From Bacteroidales bacterium (GTDB lineage Bacteria; Bacteroidota; Bacteroidia; Bacteroidales; UBA12481), in assembly GCA_023145515.1 (NCBI GenBank), contig JAGLDP010000017.1, forward strand, positions 1 to 52,254: a DNA stretch of 52,254 nucleotides, read 5' to 3'. Shown one piece after another: positions 2,063 to 47,014 of the stretch. The stretch's first letter is position 1. Each line of letters begins with the position of its first letter. Position numbers and translations under genes: made by a program. Below the pieces are notes generated by a model. It made no database searches, was not told the origin of the DNA, and worked only from the letters and a program-made list of their open reading frames with translations.

Positions 2063-2142
2063 CTTCCTCCTATCTCTTCAGATCAAAAATAGTGAACATC
2101 TGATACAATAACACCAACAAGGAATTATTAATCGATTCTTTC

Positions 2143-2150
2143 TACATTTG
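2143..2150 (+). promoter_or_regulatory. Candidate -7 element before the deaminase gene
   Basis: TACATTTG matches the Bacteroidota -7 consensus TAnnTTTG exactly and lies 48 bases before the start codon of the dCMP deaminase gene. No clear -33 box was found at normal spacing. Confidence 0.4.
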
Positions 2151-2197
2151 CTCCCAAGTTCCATGGAAAGACGAAAGACTCCTGAGTCCCATAATAA

Positions 2198-2623: not shown

Positions 2624-2627
2624 AAAG

Positions 2628-4241: not shown

Positions 4242-4320
4242 AAATAATATCTTCTCTTTTAAACCCTTCCTGTTTTTTTCCATCAAAGGGTTAGAAAACA
4301 ATTTAATGAGAGAAAATATT

Positions 4321-23244: not shown

Positions 23245-23286
23245 TCAGGAATTTCTTAACTTGCCGTACAAACCAATTCTGTGGCT

Positions 23287-25836: not shown

Positions 25837-26364
25837 CTACAAACCAACTGTAACAGTAGTATTTAACACTACTGCCAGAGTGTATTGAATGTCACTTGTA
25901 TCTGAGAAGCCTGCGAATTGCACCTCCACATCGCCAAGAGCACTCAGCATAGTTGATAAAGTATCGAATTCTTGATTATCATTGGGCAGTTCCAAGATAA
26001 CATCATTAGTAATTGAAATATTTTCAAAATCCCAGCTTACTGATTGATCATTTCCAGAAATAGTAAGAGTTGCATTTGTGAGTACAACATTTTGGTCTAA
26101 ACCCGTAACAGTTGCAGTAAGATCATTCACCACAATTCCACGAATATTATCAACATAATTAGCTAAAGCTGCATCTCCAGCCAGGTTAACAGACTTTGTA
26201 ACATCAAAAGGGGCTGGTGAAGATTTCATACCAGGATTTTCAACAACTACATCCAGATTTATTGGAAAATTGATATCAATATCCGTCTTCACATAACTCC
26301 CATAATCAACACATCCAACTATAAGGAATATAGCACCGAGTAAGAAAAAGCTTCTTTTAATCAT
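25837..26364 (-). CDS. Small lipoprotein of unknown function
   Basis: The 175-residue protein has a lipobox at L-I-V-G-C (Cys18). The mature part is Asp/Asn/Val-rich, with alternating polar and hydrophobic residues suggesting a beta-sandwich, and no Cys besides the lipidated one. I recognise no family. It converges on the BNR gene (21-base gap) and is the last gene before the tRNA-Arg island boundary. Confidence 0.7.
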   Translation of the reverse strand: MIKRSFFLLGAIFLIVGCVDYGSYVKTDIDINFPINLDVVVENPGMKSSPAPFDVTKSVNLAGDAALANYVDNIRGIVVNDLTATVTGLDQNVVLTNATLTISGNDQSVSWDFENISITNDVILELPNDNQEFDTLSTMLSALGDVEVQFAGFSDTSDIQYTLAVVLNTTVTVGL

Positions 26365-26435
26365 AACAAATACAATTTTTGGTTAATCAATTCTTGACCG
26401 GCGAAGGTAAATAAAAAAGATTTAATGTTTTTTTG

Positions 26436-26443
26436 TACTTTCG
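26436..26443 (+). promoter_or_regulatory. Candidate -7 element of tRNA-Arg
   Basis: TACTTTCG lies 11 bases before the mature tRNA start and resembles the box upstream of tRNA-Leu in this window. One mismatch to TAnnTTTG; no clear -33. Confidence 0.4.
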
Positions 26444-26454
26444 CATCCACAATT

Positions 26455-26526
26455 GGCCCCATAGTTCAAGGGATAGAACAGAAGTTTCCTAAACTTCAGA
26501 TTCAGGTTCGAGTCCTGGTGGGGCTA
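26455..26526 (+). tRNA. tRNA-Arg (anticodon CCU)
   Basis: Acceptor GGCCCCA pairs with TGGGGCT (one G-U). The anticodon stem GAAGT/ACTTC holds loop TTCCTAA, anticodon CCT. The T-arm contains GGTTCGAGTCC. Discriminator A at 26526, no encoded CCA. Its last bases form one copy of the 17-bp repeat bounding the downstream island. Confidence 0.95.
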
Positions 26527-26527
26527 C
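26511..26527 (+). repeat. Left attachment-site-like repeat
   Basis: AGTCCTGGTGGGGCTAC, the 3' T-arm/acceptor part of tRNA-Arg, is identical to 39098-39114. Confidence 0.75.
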
Positions 26528-26541
26528 TAATACAATTACCT

Positions 26542-26574
26542 AACCAGCTAATTACTAGCTGGTTTTGTTTTTTT
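26542..26574 (+). terminator. Terminator after tRNA-Arg
   Basis: AACCAGCTA (26542-26550) and TAGCTGGTT (26556-26564) form a perfect 9-bp stem with a 5-base loop, followed by TTGTTTTTTT. Confidence 0.88.
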
Positions 26575-27002
26575 GAACCCCTCAATTGCACCCCTTTTCT
26601 GTACCCCCCGAATTGTATCCCAAATTACTATTCTTCACAAAATTCCAGCTTCACCTGAAGACTGGTGATAAACCATTGATGATAAATAAGAATGGGATTA
26701 GGTGGAGGCTGGATTCGAGTTTCATAGTCAATATTTATAAATCACGTTTTCTGTAGAAACTTCATCAGCACGATATGTAAGTTTTCTCAAATTCCGCAAC
26801 GTTCATGCTTGGAAATGAACACAAATTTTTGGAAGAATGAAACCATCAAATTATTCAGATTTAAAGATCATCTCGAACTTTAAAGAACACGAGGATACAC
26901 GCATGGGAAGGAAGCTTGGTGTCTTCCAAAATTGTTCCACTTCTATGGTTAGTTCTACTCCTACACTCCATACTCTAAATTCCCAAGCCTGCTGACTAGC
27001 TG
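26575..27002. other. Left end of the island, no gene seen
   Basis: About 430 bases without a convincing gene. A C-rich start has two similar short segments (AATTGCACCCC and AATTGTATCCC). A 24-codon minus-strand frame with a hydrophobic stretch exists but is too short to support. The integrase normally found beside such a tRNA junction is absent. Confidence 0.5.
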
Positions 27003-28184
27003 TTATCTTTTACTTTTTTGAGGTTCAAGTAAAACCAGAATCAAATTGTTTGAGTTTTCTTCATCCTCAATTAACTCAACAAGTTCATCTCTAATTTTTG
27101 GTAGAATTACTTCCTTCTTCTTCAGACATTCCAAGTCGTAAAATTGACCTATTACATCAAGAGTAACCAACCCTACGTATTTTTTCAGCTCTTTATTGTA
27201 GCTATGAATAAATACAGGTTCAATGCCAAACAAATCATTTTCCATTGTTGGTGTAATAAATATTTTTGAGGTATCGCAGGTTGTTTGATGACTAAGACTA
27301 AACACTTCATCATTTTTCTTATCATAAGCAACATTGATCCGCTCTTGACCATTCATCCCTTCAACAAATAAAAAACCACCATACTCATTGACGCTGAAAA
27401 CTTTAAACGATTCCTTGTTGGATGGCACGTCAACAATATTGGTTGGGATGACCTCTCCATCAGGAGTGATTGTGTACACTGTGTCGATACTTGATTCCCA
27501 AAAGTAGAATCTTTCAGAACCCTGATTAATGGTTGCAGTAGAGGACTTATTAAGGTGATTATTGTTAGGAAGAATTTTTCTAATCATATTAACATCTAAA
27601 TCAAGAAGTACCAAGCTGTGAAATTCATCAATCTGATTATTTGGTTTTTTGCAAAGGACAAGGAAATGATCGTCTGAAATGAATCTGATGTCAGTGGCAA
27701 ATCTAGCTGGAATAATCTCACTAGTATTTTGTTCTTTTATAAATTCCCCGTTGGTGTTGTATTTGATTATCTTCTGTCGTACTCCGTCCACAATAAAAAC
27801 AAACCGATCTTTAGCGTCCATTACCACCTCGCTGGCATGATGAAATTCACCCGGTCCTTTACCTTTTCTACCAATGTGTCTAACAAACTTCCCATCCTTA
27901 GTAAATAGTATTATTCTGTCTTCAACATTATCTGACACCATAATGTATTTCTCACCAATAGAAAGGGAACTGACATTAGTTATATAAGTTTCCATCCTTG
28001 GCTCTAAAACAATAAGCTCTACATCGGTAACAACGTCACTAAGTTTGATGTTTTTATTCTGTTCCAATCCCTTGCTAATGTCAATAATTACAGGAGCTCC
28101 AATATCCGATTTATCTCCAGAGCAGCTTTGGAAAAGAAATCCTGTGATTGTAAAAGCAAGTAAAAAAAAGATAGTTCTCTGCAT
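27003..28184 (-). CDS. 6-bladed beta-propeller lipoprotein (BF3164/DUF4934-like)
   Basis: The 393-residue protein has a lipobox (F-Q-S-C, Cys21). The mature part resembles the Bacteroidota 6-bladed beta-propeller family (NHL/TolB-like): D-V-E-L-I-V-L-E-P near residue 53, then the diagnostic K-F-V-R-H-I-G-R-K-G-K-G-P-G-E-F blade. It is one of three such lipoproteins in the island. These proteins are thought to be surface or periplasmic, with unknown ligands. It is divergent from the next propeller gene. Confidence 0.8.
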   Translation of the reverse strand: MQRTIFFLLAFTITGFLFQSCSGDKSDIGAPVIIDISKGLEQNKNIKLSDVVTDVELIVLEPRMETYITNVSSLSIGEKYIMVSDNVEDRIILFTKDGKFVRHIGRKGKGPGEFHHASEVVMDAKDRFVFIVDGVRQKIIKYNTNGEFIKEQNTSEIIPARFATDIRFISDDHFLVLCKKPNNQIDEFHSLVLLDLDVNMIRKILPNNNHLNKSSTATINQGSERFYFWESSIDTVYTITPDGEVIPTNIVDVPSNKESFKVFSVNEYGGFLFVEGMNGQERINVAYDKKNDEVFSLSHQTTCDTSKIFITPTMENDLFGIEPVFIHSYNKELKKYVGLVTLDVIGQFYDLECLKKKEVILPKIRDELVELIEDEENSNNLILVLLEPQKSKR

Positions 28185-28350
28185 GATATAAAAGATTTGA
28201 TTCAGTAAGGTTTCGTTTGACTCTCTCTTTCAAATGTACTAATAAAATGGTTTTAGACCAATTTCAAGATACACATTCATTGCAGGTAATAATCAGGAAA
28301 TAAAGCAGATGGTTATAACACATTGAGACTATTAACTAATTTGTTAATCA

Positions 28351-28407
28351 AAGGTTAGTGAAAGGGAAAATCCTTATGTTGTATTCTTCAAAATTAGAAA
28401 ACGTTAA
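28351..28407 (+). pseudogene. 3' remnant of a lost propeller-lipoprotein gene
   Basis: The frame reads K-V-S-E-R-E-N-P-Y-V-V-F-F-K-I-R-K-R-stop. It is nearly identical to the C-terminus of the intact protein encoded at 28555-29694 (K-V-S-E-N-D-N-P-Y-V-V-L-F-K-I-R-K-R-stop). DNA similarity continues past the stop to about 28430 (copy at 29638-29716). A tandem duplicate has been deleted except for its tail. The rest of 28185-28554 shows no gene. Confidence 0.75.
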
Positions 28408-28554
28408 TAAATAGAAAAATGAACCTTAATTTTGGATTTTTGAATGAAGTAATAATAACCTTAACTTTATGAGAAATCGAGTACAATACAATTCAACTTT
28501 AAACACCATCTCTTCACATCAGACTCAAGACCTAAACATAAATGTTATATAGAT

Positions 28555-29694
28555 ATGAGAACACCTTCTTTAGCTGTTATTATTACCCTTGTATTGTTCA
28601 CCATGTTGCAAGCATGTACTTCCAAGAAGTCCGAACCAAGTCAATATCCAGAAGTTATAAAAATTGATGTTGACGATAAGGATCGTGATTTATTGAAAAT
28701 TAGTTTAGATGATGTTTTTCCTCTTGAAACTTCTCAAACCAGCCTGCTAGGTTACGTATCCAAGGCACGATATTTTAATAATCGATTTTATATTCTTGAT
28801 AATTTAAGGAGTGAATCATTCTTTGTTTTTGATAAAAGAGGAGACTTCATTACCAAAACAATCAAGGGGAAAGGACCGGGTGAAATTTCAGATCCGTTTG
28901 CTTTTACAATAATCAAAGAAGATTCTGTTATTTTTTTATATGATCAAAGGAAACGAGCAATCCACTTTTACGACCTAGATCTTAATCACCTACGGTCTAA
29001 AAGACTTGTTGATGAATATATCTTGGATATTGACAATATCAATCGTGATTCTTTCCTTATCTACCATAACGCTGTAAGTACAAGTTCTCAAGGAGTTATA
29101 AGTGTTGTTCCTTATACACTATGCGATAAGGGGTTTACAAAAAAGGAGCATCTAGGCATTCGTTTACCCAGCAATAAAACAGTTCAATCATTATATAGTC
29201 CAGTCAGTATTGAAAATGATGAAGTTTTCTTTGTTGCTCCATGGAATTATAATATCTATCAACTATTTGAAGGAAAGGAAAGAGTTAGGTACAGTTTGGA
29301 TTATGGAAAATATCAATTCTCATCAAAGGAGTTAGAAACACTTACATCTCCTGATCTGTGGTATCACATTAAGCAAGGAAATCGTGGAGGACTTCCATAC
29401 AGCTTATTCAGAACTGATGATTTTCTAATAATTATTACACGCATTGAAGACAGGATTTTGACTTACATTCGTTCAAATAAGAGTAAGAAAGTCTTTTGTC
29501 TTAACGATTGTATTGATGCTAATCTAATGCCAGATTGTAAGATTTGGGGAGTTAAACCTGATGGGACATTTTATGGAATGGTTGAACCAACACAACTTAT
29601 TAAATATCAGAAATCCAGTGGTCAGTATAAAAACTTAAAGGTTAGTGAAAATGACAATCCATATGTTGTATTGTTCAAAATAAGAAAACGTTAA
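28555..29694 (+). CDS. 6-bladed beta-propeller lipoprotein
   Basis: The 379-residue protein has a lipobox L-Q-A-C (Cys21) and a propeller domain with the family-typical F-P-L-E-T segment near residue 56. The blade F-V-F-D-K-R-G-D-F..K-G-K-G-P-G-E-I-S-D-P-F follows. It is a paralogue of the lipoproteins at 27003-28184 and 33948-35099. A tail of a former tandem copy lies just upstream. Function unknown; expected at the outer membrane. Confidence 0.8.
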   Translation: MRTPSLAVIITLVLFTMLQACTSKKSEPSQYPEVIKIDVDDKDRDLLKISLDDVFPLETSQTSLLGYVSKARYFNNRFYILDNLRSESFFVFDKRGDFITKTIKGKGPGEISDPFAFTIIKEDSVIFLYDQRKRAIHFYDLDLNHLRSKRLVDEYILDIDNINRDSFLIYHNAVSTSSQGVISVVPYTLCDKGFTKKEHLGIRLPSNKTVQSLYSPVSIENDEVFFVAPWNYNIYQLFEGKERVRYSLDYGKYQFSSKELETLTSPDLWYHIKQGNRGGLPYSLFRTDDFLIIITRIEDRILTYIRSNKSKKVFCLNDCIDANLMPDCKIWGVKPDGTFYGMVEPTQLIKYQKSSGQYKNLKVSENDNPYVVLFKIRKR

Positions 29695-29797
29695 ATAAAT
29701 AGAGAATGAACCTTAACTGTTTAGCTGGTACTGAAATTACTAATAATAGTTAGGTCATTTTCTAAAACATACTAAATCTTAAATGCTGAAAAACATT

Positions 29798-29878
29798 CTA
29801 TCCGTTGAGAATTAGTACCAGAGAACTCATTGGCCGGAGGCCAATGGTTCCCCAGTACTAACTAAATGGTTCGGATAG
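29798..29878. repeat. 81-bp nested palindrome
   Basis: Three nested arm sets share one centre. CTATCCG (29798-29804) pairs with CGGATAG (29872-29878). TTAGTAC (29812-29818) pairs with GTACTAA (29855-29861). The core GAAC-T-CATTGGCC (29823-29835) pairs with GGCCAATG-GTTC (29839-29850) around a 3-base GGA loop. No T-run follows, so it is not a standard terminator. Confidence 0.85.
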
Positions 29879-29952
29879 TCAAAGAACATGCATTTCCATT
29901 ATGCTGCCATATTCTGATCCGTTAGATGCCCATCCACGTTACTCAACAATAC

Positions 29953-29986
29953 TGGACTTACCCCCAAAAGATGGACGCTGAGTTAA
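29953..29986 (+). mobile_element. Possible IS3-family (IS150-like) terminal sequence relic
   Basis: The 34 bases begin TGGACTTACCCCCAAAAG and continue ATGGACGCTGAGTTAA. This resembles the ends of IS3/IS150-group elements (TGTACTGmCCC...TTGGAC pattern, from memory). No transposase gene follows and no matching opposite end was found, so this would be a solo end. Confidence 0.3.
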
Positions 29987-29987
29987 G

Positions 29988-30275
29988 CTAGGCCACATTG
30001 TTAAAATTACTATTTATTTTCTTAAACTCATCTATCGTTTTATATCCTAAAGCTGAATGCCTTCCAGTTTTACCAATTCCAATATCTGACACTGTCAACT
30101 CTCCACAACCGTGTTCTAGTAATGCTTTCTTAATGTTAAAATCAGATTTATTTATTATAGTAATAAAAGCAGTGTTTTCTGTAATAGTTTCTTTAGAATT
30201 AACTACGGAGTTTAGAAACCAAATGCAAAAACACAATGTTATTCCAATAAAAAATCCTAGAGTTGTATTGTTCAT
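29988..30275 (-). CDS. Small membrane-anchored protein, unknown
   Basis: The 95-residue protein has one N-terminal transmembrane or signal segment (about 5-24, rich in F, I, C and L) and a short exported domain with one Cys (H-G-C-G-E-L). I recognise no family. An equally long frame exists on the opposite strand; the minus-strand reading is preferred because it has a typical signal-anchor followed by a charged, soluble-looking domain. Confidence 0.45.
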   Translation of the reverse strand: MNNTTLGFFIGITLCFCIWFLNSVVNSKETITENTAFITIINKSDFNIKKALLEHGCGELTVSDIGIGKTGRHSALGYKTIDEFKKINSNFNNVA

Positions 30276-30295
30276 AATTTATTATTAATGCTAAC

Positions 30296-30565
30296 CTATA
30301 AGTGTTCTATCAGTCGTTCTGCATAAATGTAATATTTCCTCTGAGGATTGTCAATGATATTCAGCATGTTGTTATAGATTGTTTTGAGAATGACTGATAA
30401 CACGAGTCCTGATACTATTAGATTTGAAAATGGTGTTTTTAACGCATTTCTAAATTGACACGTGTCTTGGTAAGATCTACATTGCCGCGATTTTCTGAAT
30501 TCACGAACTAAGCATTTGTATTGAAAAAGACAAATATATTTGTGTAAACAAATTATAGCTAATTC
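30296..30565 (-). pseudogene. Open frame without start codon, probable gene relic
   Basis: A minus-strand frame stays open for about 89 codons between a TGA at 30566-30568 and a TAG at 30296-30298, with no usable ATG near its 5' end. It encodes a Cys/Arg-rich stretch, a hydrophobic segment (L-I-V-S-G-L-V-L-S-V-I-L) and ends Y-Y-I-Y-A-E-R-L-I-E-H-L. The composition looks protein-like, so it may be the 3' part of a truncated gene. Chance is not excluded. The rest of 30276-30675 shows nothing. Confidence 0.35.
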
Positions 30566-30675
30566 TCATCTATTTTCTGATGCTCCAATTTATAACCAAC
30601 TGTTTATCTTGACCTTACGCTGTAGTGAAAGTTCTGGTAGGGGCGCAAATTTAAGAGCGTTAATATCTTAATAGC

Positions 30676-31770
30676 TTAAACAAGCGGCAGTTGGTCTTCC
30701 CCATTTTCTTTAGTTAATTCAAATATTTTGTGCCAATAGAAGAAAGCCTCCGGATTAAACTTCTTCAATCGATTTAGTCTTGGCCAATAAGGTTCTCCAA
30801 TTATCCAATCCTTCATGATTGCTGGATTTTCAAATTTTTCAATTTTAGTATGATTGAATTTGATCAGAGTAGAAACGTATGCAGCCTTTGAGGCAAAAGT
30901 GATTGCTCTATCAATATGAAATGACTCTGAGAAAATAAATCTAGAAACACGTTGAATGCCTGTTTGTAAATGGTTAAAATCACCTTTCCCATCGGCACCC
31001 CTACTTACCAAGCAAAGAGAGGTAAGGTAGATATCATCCAGCACATCCCCAATTGTTAATTTTGATAGATTTCTATATGTAAGTTCCGTGGATACAAAAT
31101 TCTCAAAAGTCTGTTTAACAAGTGCACCATCTTCTGCAATGTCCACCAGGTTACCTATGTCATAAAGTTGCTTCATGATTTCCATGCTCATACTTTTTTC
31201 TCCCTTGAAATATGGGATTCCGGTAGTATTGGGAGCGTAAGCTGTTAATTTATCTCCCAAAATATCTTCTACAGAAGGTGCTCTTACATGAATTGGATCT
31301 CCTTTTGAAAGTATGAACTTGGAGTTGACAGGAACCTCGATAATTTTAGTATACCCTACTTTTTCAAATAAGATATCGAGCAAAATACTTTCCTCAGCAT
31401 GCTGGGTTTTATGGACAGGCTGATAAAAAAACTTGTAATGAGTTTTATGAATACTTGTTGAGGTGTTGCGCTCCTGAAGTTTAAACCCTGTAAAACCTTG
31501 TTCTTCAAGCAAGGCTTTAAAAATCTCTTCCAAATTTTCAGGTTCTTTTTCAATAACAATGTCAATATCTATGGAAAGCCTTTTTGAAGAATCTAGAAGT
31601 AGCATTAAGGCAGTACCTCCCTTGAAAATAAAATCCAAATTCTGCTTCACCAAGCCCTCTAAAAGCATTAGGGCTCTAATAACCTTCTCTATAAGTATTT
31701 TATCAGCCTTTCTGTTTGCTGATGATACTTTGGTAATCCAATCTATATGTAATGAGTCTTTACTAATCAT
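30676..31770 (-). CDS. AbiEii-type nucleotidyltransferase toxin
   Basis: The 364-residue protein belongs to the AbiEii/MenA-like nucleotidyltransferase toxins. The core motif F-K-G-G-T-A-L (Gly51-Gly52) is followed by R-L-S-I-D-I-D (Asp68, Asp70 as probable metal ligands) and later the D-K-L-T-A-Y segment typical of the family. Type IV TA toxins of this class modify tRNA or other nucleic acid 3' ends and can give phage defence. Gene starts 20 bases after the antitoxin-like gene, forming the usual antitoxin-toxin order. The catalytic core appears intact. Confidence 0.85.
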   Translation of the reverse strand: MISKDSLHIDWITKVSSANRKADKILIEKVIRALMLLEGLVKQNLDFIFKGGTALMLLLDSSKRLSIDIDIVIEKEPENLEEIFKALLEEQGFTGFKLQERNTSTSIHKTHYKFFYQPVHKTQHAEESILLDILFEKVGYTKIIEVPVNSKFILSKGDPIHVRAPSVEDILGDKLTAYAPNTTGIPYFKGEKSMSMEIMKQLYDIGNLVDIAEDGALVKQTFENFVSTELTYRNLSKLTIGDVLDDIYLTSLCLVSRGADGKGDFNHLQTGIQRVSRFIFSESFHIDRAITFASKAAYVSTLIKFNHTKIEKFENPAIMKDWIIGEPYWPRLNRLKKFNPEAFFYWHKIFELTKENGEDQLPLV

Positions 31771-31790
31771 TTCAAATTAATGGCAGTAAA

Positions 31791-32462
31791 TCATATATGC
31801 TGCCGATATTTAGACGTTTCATTTAAATAATTATCTAATTCCTCTTTTTTCCTTCTTCTGCTAGCATAGCGTAACATTTTACTTTCGCTAATTGTGTACT
31901 TTTCAAATGCCTCATTAAAAATCTGATTCATTTCAGATCCTTGTTGAGCATTAAATATCACTGAATCACAGAATATATCAACAAGTAACTTCTCTATTGT
32001 AACGGTAGGAATTCCATCAACAAGTTGAATTGGGGCTTCTGAAACAAGTGATTTTACGATCCATGCCTCTTTTTCATCAATCATATATCGTCTAATTAAT
32101 TGCTCTGAAGGCTCCATAAAAACGGTATAGTCTCTGTCCTTCAAGTAATAGAAGACACTTTCCATGGCATCCTTATCAACTTCAATTAATTGGTAATATC
32201 TACCAGGTTGGTGAAGCATGAATTCGTTAAGCACCAAAGTATTCCAAAGACAAACTGTTAAAAAAGGAAAATCGGATTTTATCTTTTTATACAAGGAGTT
32301 TAGTTTATTTGATATTTCGGGGATGTAGGTATGTCCCTTACCGAGAGAATATTTTCCTCGTCCTATTCTATTTAAGACCCCTTCTTGTACAAGTTTGTAT
32401 ATCCTCCAATTGACAGTAGTCTTTTTCACTTCTGGTTCAAGAGAACTATAGAACTCCAACAA
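31791..32462 (-). CDS. AbiEi-like (DUF6577-type) antitoxin
   Basis: From TTG 32462 it is a 223-residue protein, beginning with part of a winged helix (T-V-N-W-R-I-Y-K-L-V-Q-E-G-V-L-N-R-I-G-R) and continuing as the AbiEi-like C-terminal region. The frame stays open upstream to 32543 and encodes a sensible continuation (K-R-K-F-Q-S-E-L-T-F-S-R-S-D-L-L-E-F), so the natural N-terminus is probably about 25 residues longer. No ATG, GTG or TTG exists there; only ATT, ATC or ATA could start. Either a non-standard start is used, or a frameshift separated it from the ATG at 32545-32547. It pairs with the AbiEii gene downstream. Confidence 0.72.
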   Translation of the reverse strand: MLEFYSSLEPEVKKTTVNWRIYKLVQEGVLNRIGRGKYSLGKGHTYIPEISNKLNSLYKKIKSDFPFLTVCLWNTLVLNEFMLHQPGRYYQLIEVDKDAMESVFYYLKDRDYTVFMEPSEQLIRRYMIDEKEAWIVKSLVSEAPIQLVDGIPTVTIEKLLVDIFCDSVIFNAQQGSEMNQIFNEAFEKYTISESKMLRYASRRRKKEELDNYLNETSKYRQHI

Positions 32463-32727
32463 GTCAGAGCGCGAAAATGTAAGTTCCGATTGAAATTTAC
32501 GCTTTATGCGTTCAATATGGAGTTTATTTTGTGCGATTGTATTTCATTTGCTTGATCAAATATACAAAACTATATTTTGGCATCAAAACACTATTGCTGC
32601 CGATAATTAGATCTCAGGTCTTTCTTGGGTCTCTGATCATTATTATTTGAATTGCATTACCGATAAAGATGCAAAATATCCAAACTGCGTAATCAACTTT
32701 TGAAATTAGTTCCGGTTCGTTTAAAAA

Positions 32728-33492
32728 ATGCAAGGTTTGGAACTTCTGCGTGTGTATATGGAGATTATCTTTTTGTGTATGCTAGCAAGGGAGTCTCTTT
32801 TAGCACTACCGGAAAAGTGTTATGCCTATGGTGATGGTGAATTGTTTAAGTCTCAGGATTTTGGATTCAATTGGGAACATACTAGTACAACGCATTTGGG
32901 CCATTTGAGGTCATTAACAATGTTAGATGGGTTATTATTTGGACAATCATTCTTAAATGGATATAAAGTGTTTTTATCAAATGATAATGGGATGAACTGG
33001 GAGATTGAAGATGGGTATAGGTATCAAACTGTTGATGATCAAGGGGTATTGCATGCTTTGTCTGGTGACTCCATTCTCACTTCGTATGATTTTGGTGTGA
33101 CATGGATCCAAAAATTTTCATTGCCAGAGGGCACAGATGCCAGTACCATCTGTTGTTCGGGTGAAGATCTATTTGTTATTGATGTTTATGGTAGTATATA
33201 TACGATTAAAACAAATAATTCTCTATCTACTGATCCAATCAAACATCAATTTAATTTCACCCTCTACCCAAATCCCTGTGCTAATGAGATTCATATTTCG
33301 AATCCATCTTTAATTCAAGTCGTTACTGTCAATATTTTGGATATGAACGGTCGCATTATGAAATCTATCAAGACCAACACATTGATCGCTGATATTAAAA
33401 TACCTACGGCCGATCTGACAAATGGAAAGTATATTCTACAGGTACAAGGGAATGATAAAACCTATTCCTCAACCTTCATTAAACTAAACTAA
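32728..33492 (+). pseudogene. Frameshifted, 5'-truncated T9SS cargo protein
   Basis: The 254-codon frame encodes BNR-like repeats (L-F-K-S-Q-D-F-G-F-N-W, F-L-S-N-D-N-G-M-N-W, L-T-S-Y-D-F-G-V-T-W) and a C-terminal T9SS domain (L-Y-P-N-P..G-K-Y-I-L-Q-V), but has no signal peptide. Its first ~30 residues are implausible. An overlapping frame over about 32700-32835 reads V-Y-G-D-Y-L-F-V-Y-A-S-K-G-V-S-F-S-T-T-G-K, which continues the same protein. A frameshift near 32815-32825 and loss of the 5' end are therefore inferred. Confidence 0.65.
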
Positions 33493-33541
33493 TTCAACCA
33501 GTTCAACGGTAGTATAGAAGTAATTAATCCAGATCTGGATT

Positions 33542-33637
33542 TATGTAGCTGGTCCACCAGAAGGATGTTCAGATGGAAAACTTTTTCACTCAGTTAACCA
33601 AATAGGAATCTCTCAGAATGAATTCTTGCTATATCCT
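33542..33637 (+). pseudogene. Relic of a second T9SS cargo gene
   Basis: The frame from 33542 reads Y-V-A-G-P-P-E-G-C-S-D-G-K-L-F-H-S-V-N-Q then I-G-I-S-Q-N-E-F-L-L-Y-P, the usual junction into a T9SS sorting domain (L-Y-P-N-P). It then breaks; another frame continues toward 33717. No start codon. Probably a decayed 3' end, distinct from the intact sorting domain ending at 33492. Confidence 0.4.
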
Positions 33638-33779
33638 CAAATTCTTTGCCAAATACTTTTTTAAAATCGATAAAATATTGCTGTCTGTGGACAATAGTTC
33701 AATGATTCAACAGTAATTCATTTCTTATTGCAGTTTAACCATCATCTCGATAAAATCGTGTCATATTGACAATTGCCTC

Positions 33780-33947
33780 TCACCCTTCCAAAATCCCAAT
33801 CAGTGCAGACAGTTTGGCCAAATCCTCCCAAAAAAGGTTCGACATTTCTCCCGTCGTCTCCACGTAAACAATTCTTTGAAAGCTCGGATTATTTCGATGA
33901 AGTGACTTCCACTGAAGTTTGTAAATCTTGCCATCAATAACTAAAGA
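33780..33947 (-). other. Startless open frame downstream of the propeller gene
   Basis: Directly after the stop of the propeller gene on the same strand, a 55-codon frame reads V-I-D-G-K-I-Y-K-L-Q-W-K-S-L-H-R, then V-Y-V-E-T-T-G-E-M and ends L-I-G-I-L-E-G-stop (33780-33782). It looks protein-like but has no start codon and no family I recognise. Possibly the tail of a truncated gene. Confidence 0.3.
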
Positions 33948-35099
33948 TTAAAAGCTAATAAACAGCAAATAGGAAACACCGTCATTTTCAACTTTTTCAG
34001 AAGTGAGAGTATCCCTGTTCAATAGTTTCTCTCCCTCTGGATCAAGCTCTTGAATTACATTCTTTAGATCAAGCCCAGTAGTTGAATAAACTAATTGCTC
34101 ATCAAGGAATCCAATGACATTCCTATTTAAACCCATAAACTCCTGTCCTACTTTCTTTTGATATGTTTTAATTGTTGTAACAGTTTTATCCTTTTTGTTA
34201 TAAAATGACTCAAAAACCTCCTGATTATAAATATATTTTATCATTATCAAGTTGCTACTTTCATAGAAAGATTGATTGAAAACTTCGCCCATCAGATCGA
34301 AAGAGGGATTCTTAGTTCCGATTGAAATAACCGGTTTGTCGAAGGCAATGTTATACTTCTTATAACAAGAATCCTTTTCGATTCTGAAAATTTCATCAGA
34401 GAACCTGGGCATGAAGTCTACAAATTCTTCAAAACGCTGAAGTCGAAAATGGCTACCACCTCCTCCAATTACAGGTTCATCAAATGGGATATATTTTTGC
34501 AATAATCCCCCCTCTCTGTCGACAAGTGCAATTTTGAAGTTGTAACCCTCAAAATATAGGTTCGTATTTCGTTGAATCACTAATTCATTGGAGCTCCAGG
34601 GTGCGAAAGACAACAAAACCTCTTGAACAGTATCAAGCCTAAAAGTTCGGGTTTCTTTAAAAATGAAATCCTGAGTGTAAATGTGTAAAGCCTTTTTGCC
34701 CGAATCAACAATCCAGATATCTCTATTAATTGGATCAATATCAAAATCAACCATATTGATGTATTCTCCTGGTCCCTCGCCATTGTTGGATAAAACTCCT
34801 TTTATCTGCCCCTTTGAGTCAAGTTTAAATATCTGCTCTCCAGCCATAATCTTATTAAGAATATAGAGCTCATCGGCAGCCCCTTGTAGCTTCATAATCC
34901 ACTGTAAATGTGCTGTTGTATCCTCCTCAACTCGTAAAATCCGAATACTTTTAATTATATCTGTTTCATTTACCAACACAGATTTGTCAATATCGATATT
35001 AATCGTTTCGACATCGTTCTCAATATTCTTTGCAAAGCACTGAACGAATAGTAAAACGATACTGGTAAAAATGGATGTCTTTATAATATTCTTTATCAT
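33948..35099 (-). CDS. 6-bladed beta-propeller lipoprotein in the kinase cluster
   Basis: The start is set at ATG 35099 (M-I-K-N-I-I-K-T), which gives a lipoprotein signal with Cys21 (F-V-Q-C); the frame is open to 35222 but that part overlaps the upstream gene. The 383-residue protein carries the propeller signature (F-K-L-D-S-K-G-Q-I..N-N-G-E-G-P-G-E-Y, then W-I-V-D-S). It begins ten bases after the DUF4369/TlpA-type gene, so both are co-transcribed. Paralogue of the propellers at 27003 and 28555. Confidence 0.8.
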   Translation of the reverse strand: MIKNIIKTSIFTSIVLLFVQCFAKNIENDVETINIDIDKSVLVNETDIIKSIRILRVEEDTTAHLQWIMKLQGAADELYILNKIMAGEQIFKLDSKGQIKGVLSNNGEGPGEYINMVDFDIDPINRDIWIVDSGKKALHIYTQDFIFKETRTFRLDTVQEVLLSFAPWSSNELVIQRNTNLYFEGYNFKIALVDREGGLLQKYIPFDEPVIGGGGSHFRLQRFEEFVDFMPRFSDEIFRIEKDSCYKKYNIAFDKPVISIGTKNPSFDLMGEVFNQSFYESSNLIMIKYIYNQEVFESFYNKKDKTVTTIKTYQKKVGQEFMGLNRNVIGFLDEQLVYSTTGLDLKNVIQELDPEGEKLLNRDTLTSEKVENDGVSYLLFISF

Positions 35100-35109
35100 G
35101 ACTTTGGAT

Positions 35110-36270
35110 TTATAGTAACTCGATGAGTAACTTCTTAACCTCTGATGCCGTTGGATTAATGGCGAGGATCTCTCCCTTCTCATCAACCAGGATAGTTCCA
35201 CCTCCGGAGTTAGAAACTCCATATTTATCCCAGATACCGTTCTGATTGTTCAACTCAACCAAATTAATCCAAGGAAATTTTTCTTTCGCCATCCTTTTTC
35301 TCAAAGCATCTGTATTATTAAACTCACCGGCAACTCCAACAATGGTAAAACCTTTACCCACAAATTCTTTGAATATGGGAATCATGGTTCTTGAATTTTC
35401 AATACATGGGCCACACCAACTTGCCCATAGATCGATCAATGCGATTTTACTCTTAATTTCGTCAGACAATCTTATCTGATTTCCTTCAATATCTGGCAGG
35501 GTGAAGTCAATAAATGTTCCACCAATTTTTATATTGTCTAATCCATCAAGCAAATTTTCAACAATGCTGTTATATGGATGATCAGAGTGTTTTTTAAGAA
35601 AAATAGAATAGTCCTTTTTTAACTGATTGATATTGGGATTCTCATTACTTGGATCCTGGATATTTATTATGAACCAATAATATGCAGGAACAGAGTATTC
35701 AAATCCCTCATAATCATATCGCCAGGCGGATATTTCTTCCATAATCTTGAAACTTTGCTCTCTCAGAGCTGTTGCTTTTGGAGTAGTCTGAAGGTTGGTT
35801 GAGTCTGTGAAATAATTACCCTCCTTGAGTAAAACATCAATGGAGTCATTGTAGGGCTGACACTTTGTATTGAAATCGTCTAAAAATTGATTGTATCGAG
35901 AGTAATACATCTGATTAAGTTTGCCTCCTGATATCTTATTTTCACTTGCTCTTAGCATAGTGTGAAGTTTAAATTCAATGAGGCCCCCATCTGGAAAAAA
36001 CAGATTTTGATAAAAAGGTTCATCAGGAAAAACTAACGCATAAGCTTCACATTCAGAAATATTTAGCTCATAGGTAAAAGAATTGTTATTTACAGGTATT
36101 TTGATTTCTAGTCCTGTATCAAACTCTAATCCTTTTGTTAATAGTATTGTATCTATTTTGTGATCTACAATTTCCCCACTTAGTATACAAGTCTTCGGCG
36201 ATTCCTGTCCAGTGCATGTACATAGCAGACATAGGAGTCCCATTAATGAAAGAGATATTATTATTTTCAT
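35110..36270 (-). CDS. DUF4369/TlpA-type thioredoxin lipoprotein
   Basis: The 386-residue protein has a lipobox in L-L-C-T-C (Cys19). Residues ~25-130 look like the DUF4369 beta-sandwich found before thioredoxin domains in Bacteroidota; a helical linker follows. The C-terminal ~140 residues are a TlpA/ResA-type thioredoxin fold with W-A-S-W-C-G-P-C. It probably reduces or isomerises disulfides at the cell envelope. It lies 27 bases after the LytTR fragment and ten before the propeller gene. Confidence 0.85.
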   Translation of the reverse strand: MKIIISLSLMGLLCLLCTCTGQESPKTCILSGEIVDHKIDTILLTKGLEFDTGLEIKIPVNNNSFTYELNISECEAYALVFPDEPFYQNLFFPDGGLIEFKLHTMLRASENKISGGKLNQMYYSRYNQFLDDFNTKCQPYNDSIDVLLKEGNYFTDSTNLQTTPKATALREQSFKIMEEISAWRYDYEGFEYSVPAYYWFIINIQDPSNENPNINQLKKDYSIFLKKHSDHPYNSIVENLLDGLDNIKIGGTFIDFTLPDIEGNQIRLSDEIKSKIALIDLWASWCGPCIENSRTMIPIFKEFVGKGFTIVGVAGEFNNTDALRKRMAKEKFPWINLVELNNQNGIWDKYGVSNSGGGTILVDEKGEILAINPTASEVKKLLIELL

Positions 36271-36297
36271 TTCAAATAAATTTAGGGTTCGTAATTC

Positions 36298-36603
36298 TTA
36301 TTCCTTGGATTTCAAGTCTTTGAAGAATTGATCCCGATAGCTCATCCCTATGGGAATCATTTGTTCACCAATCCTGATTTTATTTCGTTCTATGCTATCT
36401 ATTTTGTCTAATGAAACAACATAAGATTTATGCACTCGCATAAACTTGCTTCTTGGCAATCTACATTCAAGATTCTTGAAACTCTGCAAAGTCATTATTT
36501 TAGATTGTGAGGAAACAATTTTCAAGTAGCCCCCCTGTCCTTCAACGTATAGAATATCAGAAAAATCAATGCGCTCCATACGATATTCTGTCTTCACAAA
36601 CAT
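36298..36603 (-). CDS. LytTR DNA-binding domain (3' part of a split response regulator)
   Basis: The 101-residue LytTR domain shows D-I-L-Y-V-E-G-Q-G-G-Y-L-K-I, F-M-R-V-H-K-S-Y-V-V-S-L-D-K-I and the terminal F-F-K-D-L segment. It is in frame with the receiver domain gene upstream: between them are only a TAA (36643-36645) and 13 sense codons. The two pieces together would be a normal ~240-residue LytTR regulator. The ATG at 36603 could allow internal translation, giving a DNA-binding domain without receiver control. Confidence 0.8.
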   Translation of the reverse strand: MFVKTEYRMERIDFSDILYVEGQGGYLKIVSSQSKIMTLQSFKNLECRLPRSKFMRVHKSYVVSLDKIDSIERNKIRIGEQMIPIGMSYRDQFFKDLKSKE

Positions 36604-36642
36604 ATATTCTCTGGGTAGATCACCATTAGTATCATTCTGAAC

Positions 36643-36981
36643 TTAATCGACGGCTTTTAAGAACCTTTCGAATGAATAGGGTTTTAAAAGATAATCAGTT
36701 ACAGAATAGTCGAAGCCTTTAACCGCATATTCGCTGTATGCCGAAACAATAATTATCTTCGGGTGCTTTGCTAATGACTCCAAAAACTGCAAGCCCGTAA
36801 ACACCTCCATTTGGATATCCAGAAAAACCAAATCCACTTGCTGAGTTTTCATAAAAGAAAGAGCTTCAATTCCATTAGTGAATGATCCCAATAAATTTAA
36901 TAAAGGAACCTCGCCTATGAACCTTTCCAGCTTCTCGATGGCAAGAGGTGTATCGTCAATTACTATGCAATTAATTGTCAT
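36643..36981 (-). CDS. Response regulator receiver domain (5' part of a split LytTR regulator)
   Basis: The 112-residue CheY-like receiver has acidic residues I-D-D (9-10), phospho-acceptor Asp55 in V-F-L-D-I-Q, S-A-Y-S and the Lys of L-L-K-P-Y. It stops at an in-frame TAA just where the linker to LytTR begins. It overlaps the kinase gene by 11 bases, so kinase and regulator are translationally coupled. Confidence 0.85.
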   Translation of the reverse strand: MTINCIVIDDTPLAIEKLERFIGEVPLLNLLGSFTNGIEALSFMKTQQVDLVFLDIQMEVFTGLQFLESLAKHPKIIIVSAYSEYAVKGFDYSVTDYLLKPYSFERFLKAVD

Positions 36982-38002
36982 TCGTGGTAATTCTTAGGAA
37001 AACCTTAAAGCTATCATCCTCTTCCTTAATTTCCAGTTTATGCTTTTCAGGATATATCAATTCAAGTCTTCTCTTGATAATATCCAATCCAACACCGCTG
37101 GAATCATCTTTAGTTATCAGTTTAGTTTTATCCGCCAGATTTCTTGATTCGAAAGTTACAATATCACCCTCAATTGAGAATTGAAATTGTATGGCATCAT
37201 CAATTTCTTTGTCAGTACAGTGTTTAAAAGCGTTTTCTACAAAAGAGACAAACATAATCGGTGCAATTGAAATATTCTCTGGTGCACCCTTAACAGTTAA
37301 TGATACCAGATTCTTATTGGCATATTGTATTGCCTGAAGTTCAATATAGTTCTCAATATGCTTTATTTCACTAGCCAAGGATACCTTATTTACCTTAGTG
37401 TCATATATCATATACCTCATAATCTCAGAGAGTTTCACGAGAGTCTCAGAGGCTTTTTCTGCATTACTTTTGATCAAACTGTCTATGTTATTTAGGGTAT
37501 TGAAGAAAAAATGAGGACTAATTTGATTTTTAAGTAGATTTAATTCACCCTGCAAATTCTGTTTCTGTAGTTCCTCAGATTTGATTTTTAATTTAATCCA
37601 ATCAATTGCAAACCTGAATAGGCTTCCTAGAATTGCTGTGAGAAGATTGGCCGAATAAAATCTTATGAAAGTCACCACAGCCTGCAATTCCTTACCTCCA
37701 CTATTCAAATATAAATACAAAGCAATAGAGATAATGGTTAAGAGTAGAATAGCCCCAGTTTTATATCCATAATTTCTTTCGGCAAATATCTTTGGTTTAA
37801 GAAAATAGAACAAATAGAAAATGATTATGTAAAATATTGCACGAACGATAATATGGGGAGCCACCATATTGATGAAATCCTTAAAAAGTATCATTTCTTG
37901 ATATGGTGGTATAAATGTACCTATCCATTTATTTAAAAACATAAATACTCCAAGAACGACCCACGATAAAATATGGATTATAAGGATTGTTTGTTTTTTC
38001 AT
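36971..38002 (-). CDS. LytS/YehU-type sensor histidine kinase
   Basis: The 343-residue protein has about four transmembrane helices (roughly 7-25, 45-70, 82-100, 110-130), a short coiled segment, then a His_kinase domain with phospho-acceptor His164 in N-Q-I-S-P-H-F-F-F-N-T-L-N. The ATPase part has F-V-E-N-A-F-K-H and G-V-G-L-D-I-I-K-R-R. It likely phosphorylates the adjacent receiver. First gene of the five-gene minus-strand cluster that ends with the propeller lipoprotein. Confidence 0.9.
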   Translation of the reverse strand: MKKQTILIIHILSWVVLGVFMFLNKWIGTFIPPYQEMILFKDFINMVAPHIIVRAIFYIIIFYLFYFLKPKIFAERNYGYKTGAILLLTIISIALYLYLNSGGKELQAVVTFIRFYSANLLTAILGSLFRFAIDWIKLKIKSEELQKQNLQGELNLLKNQISPHFFFNTLNNIDSLIKSNAEKASETLVKLSEIMRYMIYDTKVNKVSLASEIKHIENYIELQAIQYANKNLVSLTVKGAPENISIAPIMFVSFVENAFKHCTDKEIDDAIQFQFSIEGDIVTFESRNLADKTKLITKDDSSGVGLDIIKRRLELIYPEKHKLEIKEEDDSFKVFLRITTNDN

Positions 38003-38067
38003 AGAGCTTGTCGCTGGATTCTTGTTAGAACAAAAAACAACATTATCAACCTTAAATCAAAATGCAA

Positions 38068-38358
38068 TTAACGAACGAAGGGATTTTGTGCATGAAGGAA
38101 TAGAAAAGTGTATTCAACCTTCTGAAATACAGAAAAAGATTCGCCTGTTTCAAGTTCTAAATCATAAAGATGATCTCTGAAAACACCTTCTTGCTTTAGA
38201 TCTGTATGATAGCCCGTTAAGATTAGAATATCCCAATCAGATGTCTTTTTTGCATCCCCTCTTGCTCGAGAGCCATAGAGTGCTACCTCGGCTTGAGGAT
38301 CTATCTGACTGATTCTCATACGAATCATATTGGCAATATTCTTGTCTCTATCTAACAT
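38068..38358 (-). CDS. Minimal nucleotidyltransferase (MntA-like)
   Basis: The 96-residue protein has the nucleotidyltransferase motif G-S-R-A-R-G-D-A (29-36) followed by S-D-W-D (40-43). It ends at N-P-F-V-R, a point where relatives often continue with an N-I-x-x-E-G segment, so a slight C-terminal truncation is possible. Relatives act as the antitoxin half of HEPN/MNT pairs; no HEPN gene is adjacent. Confidence 0.8.
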   Translation of the reverse strand: MLDRDKNIANMIRMRISQIDPQAEVALYGSRARGDAKKTSDWDILILTGYHTDLKQEGVFRDHLYDLELETGESFSVFQKVEYTFLFLHAQNPFVR

Positions 38359-38378
38359 ATTCCAAATCTAATGATTTT

Positions 38379-38462
38379 CTAATCATCAACTCGAATGTGA
38401 CCAGGACCAACGGCTGGAACAACTAAGAAAAGAAAGAGACTAACATTAAAGAATAGTTTCAT
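38379..38462 (-). CDS. Very short signal-peptide-like open frame
   Basis: A 27-codon frame reads M-K-L-F-F-N-V-S-L-F-L-F-L-V-V-P-A-V-G-P-G-H-stop-proximal tail. It is a basic start, hydrophobic core and short polar end between the XRE and nucleotidyltransferase genes. It may be a tiny exported peptide, the relic of a longer secreted protein, or chance. Confidence 0.25.
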   Translation of the reverse strand: MKLFFNVSLFLFLVVPAVGPGHIRVDD

Positions 38463-38521
38463 TATAGTTTTTGTCTACTCATTGCTTATGTTTTCCTATT
38501 AAACTTTTGGCTTGTGTGCCT

Positions 38522-38803
38522 TTATCTCGCAATTAATTGAACAGAGAGATCCAGAGCATTTGCGACCAATAAAAGATTTGAGATCTTTATATCCTCTCCA
38601 TTTTCAATTCGTGAGATATAAGGGCGTTTTTTACCAACTGCCTCAGCTAGTGCTTCTTGACTCATTTTTAATTCCTTTCTGCGATTTCTTATAATCTCTC
38701 CAAAATAATAGGAATAGGCTTTTTCTCTGAATTTTTCTCGACTCTTAGATCCTTTTTCGCCATATCGCTCCGCTAAAATATCTTTTGCTTTTATTGTTTT
38801 CAT
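38522..38803 (-). CDS. XRE-family helix-turn-helix protein (antitoxin-like)
   Basis: The 93-residue protein has a C-terminal HTH_3 domain (about 34-90): I-I-R-N-R-R-K-E-L-K-M-S-Q-E-A-L-A-E and R-P-Y-I-S-R-I-E-N-G-E-D-I-K. The extended N-terminus resembles HigA-type antitoxins. No RelE/HigB-like toxin is present on either side, so it is orphaned. A GTAACG/CGTTAC palindrome overlaps its promoter and is a likely self-binding site. Confidence 0.82.
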   Translation of the reverse strand: MKTIKAKDILAERYGEKGSKSREKFREKAYSYYFGEIIRNRRKELKMSQEALAEAVGKKRPYISRIENGEDIKISNLLLVANALDLSVQLIAR

Positions 38804-38864
38804 AACTTCCTGTTTTTTAACTTTTTAACAAAATTCGTATGTAATGTCAATTTCTCTCCTAGTA

Positions 38865-38885
38865 CAAATGTAACGTTTTCGTTAC
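38865..38885 (-). promoter_or_regulatory. Promoter and operator of the XRE gene
   Basis: On the minus strand TACATTTG (38872 to 38865) matches TAnnTTTG. Directly upstream and overlapping it is GTAACG-TTTT-CGTTAC (38870-38885), a perfect 6-bp inverted repeat. The layout fits autorepression by the HTH protein. The rest of 38886-39097 shows no gene. Confidence 0.55.
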
Positions 38886-39097
38886 GATTAGGCAAGTTTG
38901 ATAAATAGAAATTATATTCACTTGTGGTTCGGATTATCTATCTCTTAAAGTCGAGGCTTTATTCTTTGCTTTGAATATGAGAATTCACCAAATTCGTTCA
39001 ATAATTCAGTGTGAAACATATTATAGCTTATTTTTATTGCTTTTTTGAATTTGCATATCTTAATCTGCTATTAATGTGTTATTTTTGATATTGATAA

Positions 39098-39114
39098 AGT
39101 CCTGGTGGGGCTAC
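39098..39114 (+). repeat. Right attachment-site-like repeat
   Basis: AGTCCTGGTGGGGCTAC is identical to the tRNA-Arg 3' end at 26511-26527, but here has no tRNA around it. It marks the probable right end of the island, 74 bases before fucI. Confidence 0.75.
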
Positions 39115-39188: not shown

Positions 39189-40976
39189 ATGGCAAACAGA
39201 TTAATCGGATCTTTACCCAAAGTAGGAATTCGCCCGGTCATTGACGGACGCGAGCGTGGTGTTAGAGAGTCTCTTGAAAACCAGTGTATGAATATGGCTC
39301 AAGCAGCAGCCAAATTAATTGAGGATAATCTCCGTTTTCCAAGTGGAGAAAAAGTTGAATGCGTAATTGCAGATACCAATATTGGAGGAGTAGCTGAAGC
39401 CGCAATGTGTGCCGATAAGTTTCAACGTGAAGGTGTAGGAGTTTCTCTTACAGTAACTCCATGCTGGTGTTATGGTACAGAGGTTATGGACACAAACCCA
39501 TTAATCCCAAAAGCTGTCTGGGGATTTAACGGAACAGAACGCCCGGGCGCTGTATACCTTGCAGCAGCACTGGCCGGATATGCCCAAAAAGGCCTTCCAA
39601 CTTTTGGCATTTATGGTAGAGATGTACAGGATGCTGGAGACATGAGTATCCCTGAAGATGTGAAAGAGAAAGTATTGCGATTTGTCAAATCCGGACTAGC
39701 AGTTGCGCAAATGAACGGGAAGTCTTATCTGTCTATCGGATATAGCTCAATGGGAATTGCCGGGTCAATGGTCGACACTAATTTCTTTCAGGATTATCTG
39801 GGAGTTCGTACCGAGTTTGTTGAGTCAGTAGAGATCCTCCGTAGAATTGATGAAGGTGTTTATGATAAAGTTGAATATGCCAAAGCACTGTCATGGACAA
39901 AAGAGAATTGCAAGGAAGGAAAAGATCACAATGCTCCTTCTAAACAGGTTGGTGCGGCCAGGAAAGTACATGAATGGGAAACCGTAGTTAAAATGGCCCT
40001 TATTTGTCGCGACTTAATGGTAGGCAATCCTAAGTTGACAGATATGGGATATCGCGAAGAAGGACTAGGACGAAATGCTATAATGGGTGGATTTCAAGGA
40101 CAAAGACAATGGACAGATTATCAGCCAAATGCCGATTTTCCGGAAGCTATCCTGAATTCTTCTTTTGATTGGAATGGTATAAGAGAAGCTTTTGTATTTG
40201 CTACTGAAAATGACAGTCTGAATGCCGTACCAATGTTGTTTGGACACTTATTATCTAATACAGCTCAGATCTTTTCTGATGTTCGTACCTATTGGAGTCC
40301 TGATGCAGTGAAACGAGTGACTGGAAAAGAATTAGAGGGTACAGCTTCAAATGGGATTATTCATCTGATTAATTCAGGATCTACTACTTTGGATGCTACG
40401 GCTCAACAAAGAGATGCAGACGGAAATCCTGCCATGAAAGCATTCTGGGAGATTAGTGAAGAGGAAGCCCAAAAATGTTTAGATAACACTCAATGGCCAC
40501 AGGCCGATCGTGGATATTTTCGCGGAGGAGGGTATTCATCTCAATTCAAAACAGAGGGTGAAATGCCGGTCACAATGTCACGTGTGAATTTGGTAAAGGG
40601 CATTGGACCAGTACTGCAAATTGCTGAAGGCTGGACAGTTGAGTTGCCAGATGAGATTCATGCCGTACTTGATAAGCGAACTAATCCTACCTGGCCAACC
40701 ACATGGTTTGTTCCTCGTACTGATGGTGAGGGTGCTTTCAAAGATGTGTATACCGTAATGGCCAATTGGGGTGCTAATCATGGAGCTATCAGTTACGGAC
40801 ATATTGGAGCCGATCTGATTACATTGGCATCCATGCTTAGGATTCCAGTTAGCATGCATAACGTTGATACAAACGATGTATTCAGACCAGCAGCCTGGGC
40901 TGCCTTTGGTACAGATAAGGAAGGATCAGATTACAGAGCCTGTGAAAATTATGGACCTCTCTACGGAATAAAATAG
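39189..40976 (+). CDS. fucI: L-fucose isomerase
   Basis: The 595-residue length equals the family standard. The start [17 protein letters not shown], the T-P-C-W-C-Y-G segment and the C-terminal [15 protein letters not shown] are characteristic. The enzyme converts L-fucose to L-fuculose (also D-arabinose to D-ribulose), Mn-dependent, in the cytoplasm. No other fucose genes follow here. It would have been next to tRNA-Arg before island insertion. Confidence 0.95.
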
Positions 40977-40996: not shown

Positions 40997-41021
40997 TACC
41001 TTTGTTCGTGTAATGACGAAC
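40997..41021 (+). promoter_or_regulatory. Promoter and ArsR-type operator
   Basis: TACCTTTG (40997-41004) is an exact -7 match. It is directly followed by GTTCGT-gtaatg-ACGAAC (41004-41021), a perfect 6-bp inverted repeat of the ArsR/SmtB kind. The first possible arsR ATG (41013) lies inside the palindrome. Confidence 0.65.
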
Positions 41022-41324
41022 AGTATGTTTGGAGACAAAGGTATCAGTGTTGAACAAGAAAAAATGGCCAGGTATGCTAAGGCCCTGAGTCATCCTATTC
41101 GAGTTTATGTAATGCAGTTATTATCTAAGCAGTCTTGCTGTTATAGTGGTGATTTGTCTGAGGTACTGCCCATTGCTAAATCAACTCTTTCTCAACATCT
41201 AAAGGAGCTTAAGAATGCCGGTTTAATCCAGGGAGAAATTGAAGCACCCAGAATAAAGTATTGTATTAATAACGAGAATTGGGAAGAAGCCAAAGGCCTC
41301 ATGAAAGCCTTATTGCTTGACTAA
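41013..41324 (+). CDS. arsR: ArsR/SmtB-family metalloregulator
   Basis: The 103-residue winged-helix repressor shows L-S-H-P-I-R-V-Y-V-M-Q-L-L, the metal-type pair S-C-C-Y-S-G-D-L (Cys42-Cys43) and recognition helix A-K-S-T-L-S-Q-H-L-K-E-L. ATG 41013 sits within the operator, so ATG 41025 is an alternative start. The first would leave almost no leader. It should repress the downstream genes until arsenicals bind its cysteines. Confidence 0.9.
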   Translation: MTNSMFGDKGISVEQEKMARYAKALSHPIRVYVMQLLSKQSCCYSGDLSEVLPIAKSTLSQHLKELKNAGLIQGEIEAPRIKYCINNENWEEAKGLMKALLLD

Positions 41325-41341
41325 AAAAATTTAATTAACTC

Positions 41342-41366
41342 GTTCGTTGTTTTGCGAATAACGAAC
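41342..41366 (+). promoter_or_regulatory. Second ArsR-type palindrome
   Basis: GTTCGT (41342-41347) and ACGAAC (41361-41366) repeat the half-sites of the arsR operator with a 13-base spacer; an inner TTCG/CGAA pair (41343-41346, 41355-41358) is also present. It lies between arsR and the ArsE-like gene and may be an internal operator/promoter. Confidence 0.55.
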
Positions 41367-41381
41367 AAAAAGACAAAGAAG

Positions 41382-41615
41382 ATGGAAGTTAAAATTTTGG
41401 GCACAGGATGTCAAAAGTGTCACACATTGGAAAAAGCGGTTAGAGATGTTATTGAGGATGAGAATATCACAGCGGATGTTGAAAAAGTAGAGGATATTGT
41501 CGAAATAATGAACTATGGAGTTATGGCTACTCCTGCCTTAGTTGTGGATGGCAAGGTTGTAGTTAAAGGACGAGTGCCATCAGCGAAAGAAATAAGAGAA
41601 TTTTTATCTAATTAA
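41382..41615 (+). CDS. Small thioredoxin-fold protein (ArsE-like)
   Basis: The 77-residue protein from ATG 41382 has the glutaredoxin-like redox motif C-Q-K-C (Cys10, Cys13) and cis-Pro region A-T-P-A-L-V-V-D-G, as in the MTH895/TM0996 small thioredoxins. The in-frame TTG at 41352 falls in the operator and is rejected. Followed by ArsF- and ArsG-like genes, it matches ArsE of the arsEFG system, which handles aromatic arsenicals. Confidence 0.82.
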   Translation: MEVKILGTGCQKCHTLEKAVRDVIEDENITADVEKVEDIVEIMNYGVMATPALVVDGKVVVKGRVPSAKEIREFLSN

Positions 41616-41625
41616 TATAGAGATT

Positions 41626-42018: not shown

Positions 42019-42020
42019 GC

Positions 42021-42725: not shown

Positions 42726-42742
42726 TATTCATCGCTTTGAAT

Positions 42743-46970: not shown

Positions 46971-47014
46971 TTTTTTACAAAGCAATTTAGTTTGGACCAT
47001 TGAAACTCATAAAC

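Follow-up and report, generated by a model that had tools for sequence, protein, structure and literature searches.

Worn-down, integrase-less relics of mobile elements are common. The cis-mobilizable element (CIME) is defined as a decayed ICE or IME at a tRNA 3' end that has lost its integration and transfer genes but kept attL and attR; CIMEs form by decay and accrete with other elements at a single tRNA site (PMC5704250). The ssrA islands of Dehalococcoides lie in tandem behind an RNA gene whose 3' end is copied over 20 bp at every border, and 15 of these islands are without an integration module (PMC3146451).

The stretch of 52,254 nucleotides analyzed here (the window) is contig C79 of a draft genome (G000; 2.58 Mb, 213 contigs, 62.8% complete) from an uncultured Bacteroidota bacterium. 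That the window contains an accessory island next to the 3' end of a tRNA gene, without an integrase of its own, is well supported. The 12.6 kb concerned are best explained, with a probability of roughly 70%, as an integrative element that inserted at tRNA-Arg(CCU) and has since decayed into a CIME, and as such the island is an ordinary CIME-like relic of a kind already known. Like a CIME, the island is without integration and transfer genes and keeps attL- and attR-like repeats (PMC5704250), whereas this genome has no known intact ICE or IME sharing its ends, and its mobilization in cis would be hypothetical. Copies of an RNA-gene 3' end as borders and a missing integration module are shared with the Dehalococcoides islands; however, those are tandem and associated with a serine recombinase at ssrA (PMC3146451), while the present locus shows one bordered unit only and probably involved a tyrosine recombinase at tRNA-Arg.

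The 17-bp repeat of the tRNA-Arg(CCU) 3' end

The last 17 bases of tRNA-Arg(CCU), AGTCCTGGTGGGGCTAC, recur with 17 of 17 bases identical at an offset of 12,587, forming a direct repeat at the far border of the island (Table 1). The original prediction had claimed this exact copy and had placed it right before fucI, and both points were confirmed: the right copy ends 75 bp upstream of the fucI start codon (ATG). Matches to AGTCCTGGTGGGGCTAC expected in shuffled sequence numbered zero, and approximately 1e-6 copies of the exact tRNA-tail 17-mer are expected in the window from its base composition. A copy of this tRNA tail is not attributable to chance. The more general argument that any 17-mer repeat is very unlikely by chance in 52 kb was overstated, since unrelated pairs occur in the window: two 17-mers match by chance in inverted orientation (16372/52131), and 17-mers of low complexity recur at 11239/18365. 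The significance of the pair comes from its being a tRNA 3' end, not from 17-mer repetition alone.

Across the draft genome, allowing at most one mismatch, the 17-mer matched at one further place only, the 3' terminus of the tRNA-Arg(CCG) gene on contig C175. The CCU (window 26427-26528) and CCG (G000:C175, L034 9565-9666) genes are 93% identical over 102 bp, a likeness that takes in about 28 bp upstream of the tRNA and possibly reflects gene conversion or recent duplication. The exact 17-mer was also encountered in two viral contigs, as the tRNA-Arg(TCT) 3' end in a 170-kb contig and in a 2-kb locus without a tRNA gene in the other; both were uninformative. Since tRNA-Arg genes are paired in the family and the two genes in this genome are so alike, recombination between tRNAs is conceivable, and the right copy could then be a piece of tRNA that remained after tRNA-Arg genes were duplicated or recombined homologously, or, given the unrelated 17-mer pairs, a chance match, with the low-G+C block an unrelated insertion. 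This explanation is considered quite improbable: both ends of the compositional block lie near the two copies, integrase-type repeats stand by the tRNA, and the length and position of the fragment are typical of an attachment core.

Table 1. Coordinates of the island, its borders and its flanks within the window.
Feature	Position	Strand	Basis
Core left flank, up to recO (22519-23244) and BNR-repeat gene (23281-25815)	2198-25815		Colinear with G001
tRNA-Arg(CCU) (anticodon CCT), proposed integration target	26455-26527	+	ARAGORN
Left 17-bp core copy (attL), within tRNA 3' end	26511-26527	+	Exact repeat
Island body	26528-39097		G+C 0.342; no orthologous block in family
Terminator-like hairpin and T run, CCAGCTAATTACTAGCTGGTTTTGTTTTTTT, directly 3' of tRNA	26541-26573	+	Read from sequence
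Three GYAYCCC repeats, probable integrase arm sites	26586-26621	+	GCACCCC 26588, GTACCCC 26601, GTATCCC 26615
6-bladed beta-propeller lipoprotein (DUF5128)	27003-28184	-	Pfam
6-bladed beta-propeller lipoprotein (DUF5128)	28555-29694	+	Pfam; 81% DNA identity to G000:C154 paralogue
Short repeat, present on many contigs of family genomes	29949-30065		Repeat matches
AbiEii-type nucleotidyltransferase toxin	30676-31770	-	PADLOC AbiEii 6e-134; Pfam AbiEii 1.4e-21
AbiEi-type partner (DUF6577)	31791-32462	-	PADLOC AbiEi 1e-87; Pfam 6e-79
BNR / Por-secretion-tail protein	32728-33492	+	Pfam
6-bladed beta-propeller protein (DUF5128)	33948-35222	-	Pfam
TlpA-like thioredoxin lipoprotein	35110-36270	-	Pfam AhpC-TSA
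LytTR response regulator, frame split by one in-frame stop	36298-36981	-	Pfam: receiver 36643-36981, LytTR 36298-36603
LytS/YehU-type histidine kinase (His_kinase)	36971-38002	-	Pfam
Small nucleotidyltransferase (MNT-like)	38068-38358	-	Pfam NTP_transf_2; PADLOC PDC-S09
XRE-type HTH regulator	38522-38803	-	Pfam HTH_3
Right 17-bp core copy, probable attR	39098-39114	+	Exact repeat
fucI (L-fucose isomerase), right neighbour, outside island	39189-40976	+	Pfam; 91% identity to G001 fucI
Conserved right flank: ArsR regulator, permease(s), beta-galactosidase, glycosidase genes	40997-49467		Colinear with G001

Composition, conservation and gene content

An unguided two-boundary maximum-likelihood fit of G+C content yielded the segment 25,949-39,204, at 0.342 versus 0.402 elsewhere, a composition unlike both flanks with boundaries at the repeats. 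The fitted left boundary lies about 500 bp upstream of the tRNA, at a low-G+C gene (25837-26364), and core-level G+C is regained right at 39.1-39.2 kb; segments of 12.6 kb examined in the left flank ranged from 0.396 to 0.403. Third-position G+C showed no clear difference between island genes and flanks, and the shift is therefore explained in part by the genes present and by a lower density of coding sequence.

Comparison with the 11 other genomes of the family revealed no orthologous block of the interval, only paralogous or repeat matches. Megablast of the interval against plasmids and phages returned no match, and an intact related element was not found in the family genomes or the plasmid and phage collections. 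The flanks, in contrast, are kept. The left flank is colinear with C214:80286-104882 of the congener G001, at about 41-91% protein identity gene by gene, while the right flank from 41.0 to about 49.5 kb is colinear in blocks with G001:C85:85702-99510, parts being ordered in G002 as well; however, G001 has the two flanks at separate places. Within the left flank, a small coding sequence (4306-4926) contains an 18-bp tandem repeat (4767-4915) that yields GQGFSR / GAMGQR repeats.

The cargo of the former element would comprise an AbiE-type pair, a LytS/LytTR two-component pair whose regulator is broken, a thioredoxin and several beta-propeller lipoproteins. Signs of decay in this cargo are the nonsense-split response regulator and a likely IS relic. 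The frame at the 29949-30065 repeat ends in RHSALGYKTIDEF, a motif suggesting that the repeat is likely the tail of a decayed IS3-type transposase, and Pfam assigned no family to the 95-aa ORF found there. The AbiE-type toxin-antitoxin pair within the island (30676-32462) may have stabilised the element. No HEPN partner was found beside the MNT-like nucleotidyltransferase.

Arm-like repeats and the missing integrase

The absence of an integrase, as originally reported, was borne out. A PF00589 profile search of the draft genome identified four places (C69, C93, C187 and C194), none of them on contig C79, and tblastn with six recombinases detected no convincing integrase remnant in the interval. 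Pfam families of the island ORFs did not include a relaxase, and none of the island proteins compared with PHROGs was identified as a phage structural protein. By the PF00589, tblastn and Pfam searches, the island is without integrase and transfer genes, as is characteristic of a CIME.

The tRNA-proximal end retains what are probably integrase arm sites, judging from sequence. The triple GYAYCCC repeat lies 60-95 bp 3' of tRNA-Arg(CCU), just past the terminator, with a spacing of 13/14 bp, and is alone of its kind in the window; clusters of three within 40 bp occurred in 0 of 60 simulated 52-kb sequences. Paired repeats of matching kind, 13 bp apart, are present at tRNA-Arg 3' ends in two relatives, G010 and G011. 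The G011 pair, TTGTACCCCCCAATTATACCCC, located 3' of tRNA-Arg(CCG), is one base off the degenerate pattern and was spotted by eye. In the 12 family genomes the degenerate pair pattern gave 7 matches versus 3 for a reversed control, with two of the seven within 100 bp of a tRNA-Arg tail. The core is present at both island ends but the arm-like repeats only at the left, none being found beside the right 17-mer.

A counterpart at the sister site is provided by G010:C250, where the order is a nuclease gene, a leftward recombinase gene (998-2473), TTGTACCCCCTAATTGTACCCC, about 60 bp, TTTCGAGTCCAGTCGGGGCTAC, a terminator and the core BNR gene. Here TTTCGAGTCCAGTCGGGGCTAC is the tRNA-Arg(CCG) tail as in G004 and the terminator after it is native; 998-2573 is apparently an attR with its integrase. 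The recombinase matched PF00589 weakly (E 5e-4, below the cut-off), yet shares the invariant R436, H459 and Y468 when aligned with four other integrases, and is likely a tyrosine integrase. It was not found in the other family members searched, and a search of 246 genomes of the order, that of the window not counted, detected a single decayed relative (E <1e-40). Unlike G010, the right end in the window has neither repeats nor integrase.

These features are consistent with a scenario in which a circular element arrived and was inserted by a tyrosine integrase within tRNA-Arg(CCU), in the 3' half that forms the T-arm and acceptor. The tRNA would have been rebuilt at the left end, forming attL, with the displaced 17-bp tail left at the right end as attR. 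The integrase may have been lost or may have acted in trans. If it was lost from an element arranged like that of G010, its gene would have been at the right end, and a deletion immediately inward of the right core would have removed it together with a second set of arm sites. It is highly improbable, in our estimation, that the island is still mobile in trans, served by the integrase of another locus with specificity for its GYAYCCC arm repeats and for the tRNA-Arg core; if so, a family of integrase-free islands would share one enzyme at the tRNA-Arg pair.

The tRNA-Arg site in relatives and the right border

The other genera of the family carry tRNA-Arg(CCG) within about 10-120 bp after tRNA-Arg(CCU), and most of them have a BNR-repeat gene next. 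Because these are the ancestral neighbours, no relative has the empty site that the original prediction proposed, in which tRNA-Arg is directly joined to fucI. That proposal was not supported, while the tRNA-Arg island itself is upheld by the G+C boundaries, the interval without an orthologous block, the flanks kept in G001, the arm-like repeats and the likely integrase at the sister tRNA-Arg in G010.

In G001, the single congener compared, about 70 kb of other DNA at the tRNA-Arg locus separates these core flanks (C214:104882-174473), with the CCU and CCG tRNAs 19 kb apart within. Between these tRNAs (L036:14095), a terminator-like hairpin comes after a partial copy of the tail, TGGTGGGGCTAC. 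An exact tRNA-Arg 17-mer also occurs outside any tRNA gene at G001:C197:4813-5108, and C197 aligns over 296 bp, with 85% identity, to what lies 3' of the G001 tRNA-Arg(CCG). Sequence 3' of the G001 CCU gene (L035 19340-19400), TCTCTGGTTCGAATCCAGCTATGACAGG, resembles another tRNA 3' half, with no tRNA call.

In the genome of the window, tRNA-Arg(CCG) lies on C175 behind 9.6 kb that is unmatched in the window or G001 C214 save for distant paralogues; on C9, ispG has the BNR gene as its neighbour. An overlap between the right end of the window and C175 (37 bp, 86%) was too weak for joining the contigs. Upstream of tRNA-Arg(CCG), C175 (L034) encodes at 333-3332 an ATPase (PADLOC PDC-S01) and, preceded by an HTH gene, a kinase that by eye is likely of HipA type; this may be a further accessory stretch.

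At the right border, the native tRNA terminator or tRNA-Arg(CCG) would be expected to follow a clean attR in the ancestral position, and the right 17-mer is followed by neither. Because the genome is a 63%-complete draft, the ancestral right neighbour is not placeable. Furthermore, fucI in G001 is at an unrelated locus, separate from the ArsR block. If the contigs are correctly assembled, one of the two lineages has changed its gene order, and the right core could lie at the point of change. The right 17-mer might accordingly be an internal scar rather than the attR of one 12.6-kb element, left where elements accreted or rearranged behind tRNA-Arg or where a site-specific rearrangement brought the fucI region alongside. 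The dispersal of the ancestral neighbours onto C175 and C9, the separate G001 loci and the 70 kb with an internal tRNA-tail remnant in G001 all speak for such a history, but the right side does not resemble a second island, having core G+C from 39.1-39.2 kb and gene content conserved in G001 from 41.0 to about 49.5 kb. An internal scar is on balance unlikely, and the right 17-mer is probably the true attR of the same decayed, CIME-like element.

These comparisons show that the tRNA-Arg pair is used repeatedly in relatives, in one case with a likely integrase at the right end, and document recurrent integration at tRNA-Arg(CCU)-tRNA-Arg(CCG) within this family of uncultured Bacteroidota. The candidate core, the candidate 13-bp-spaced arm repeats and the likely cognate integrase (G010:C250) together provide a handle for finding intact elements.
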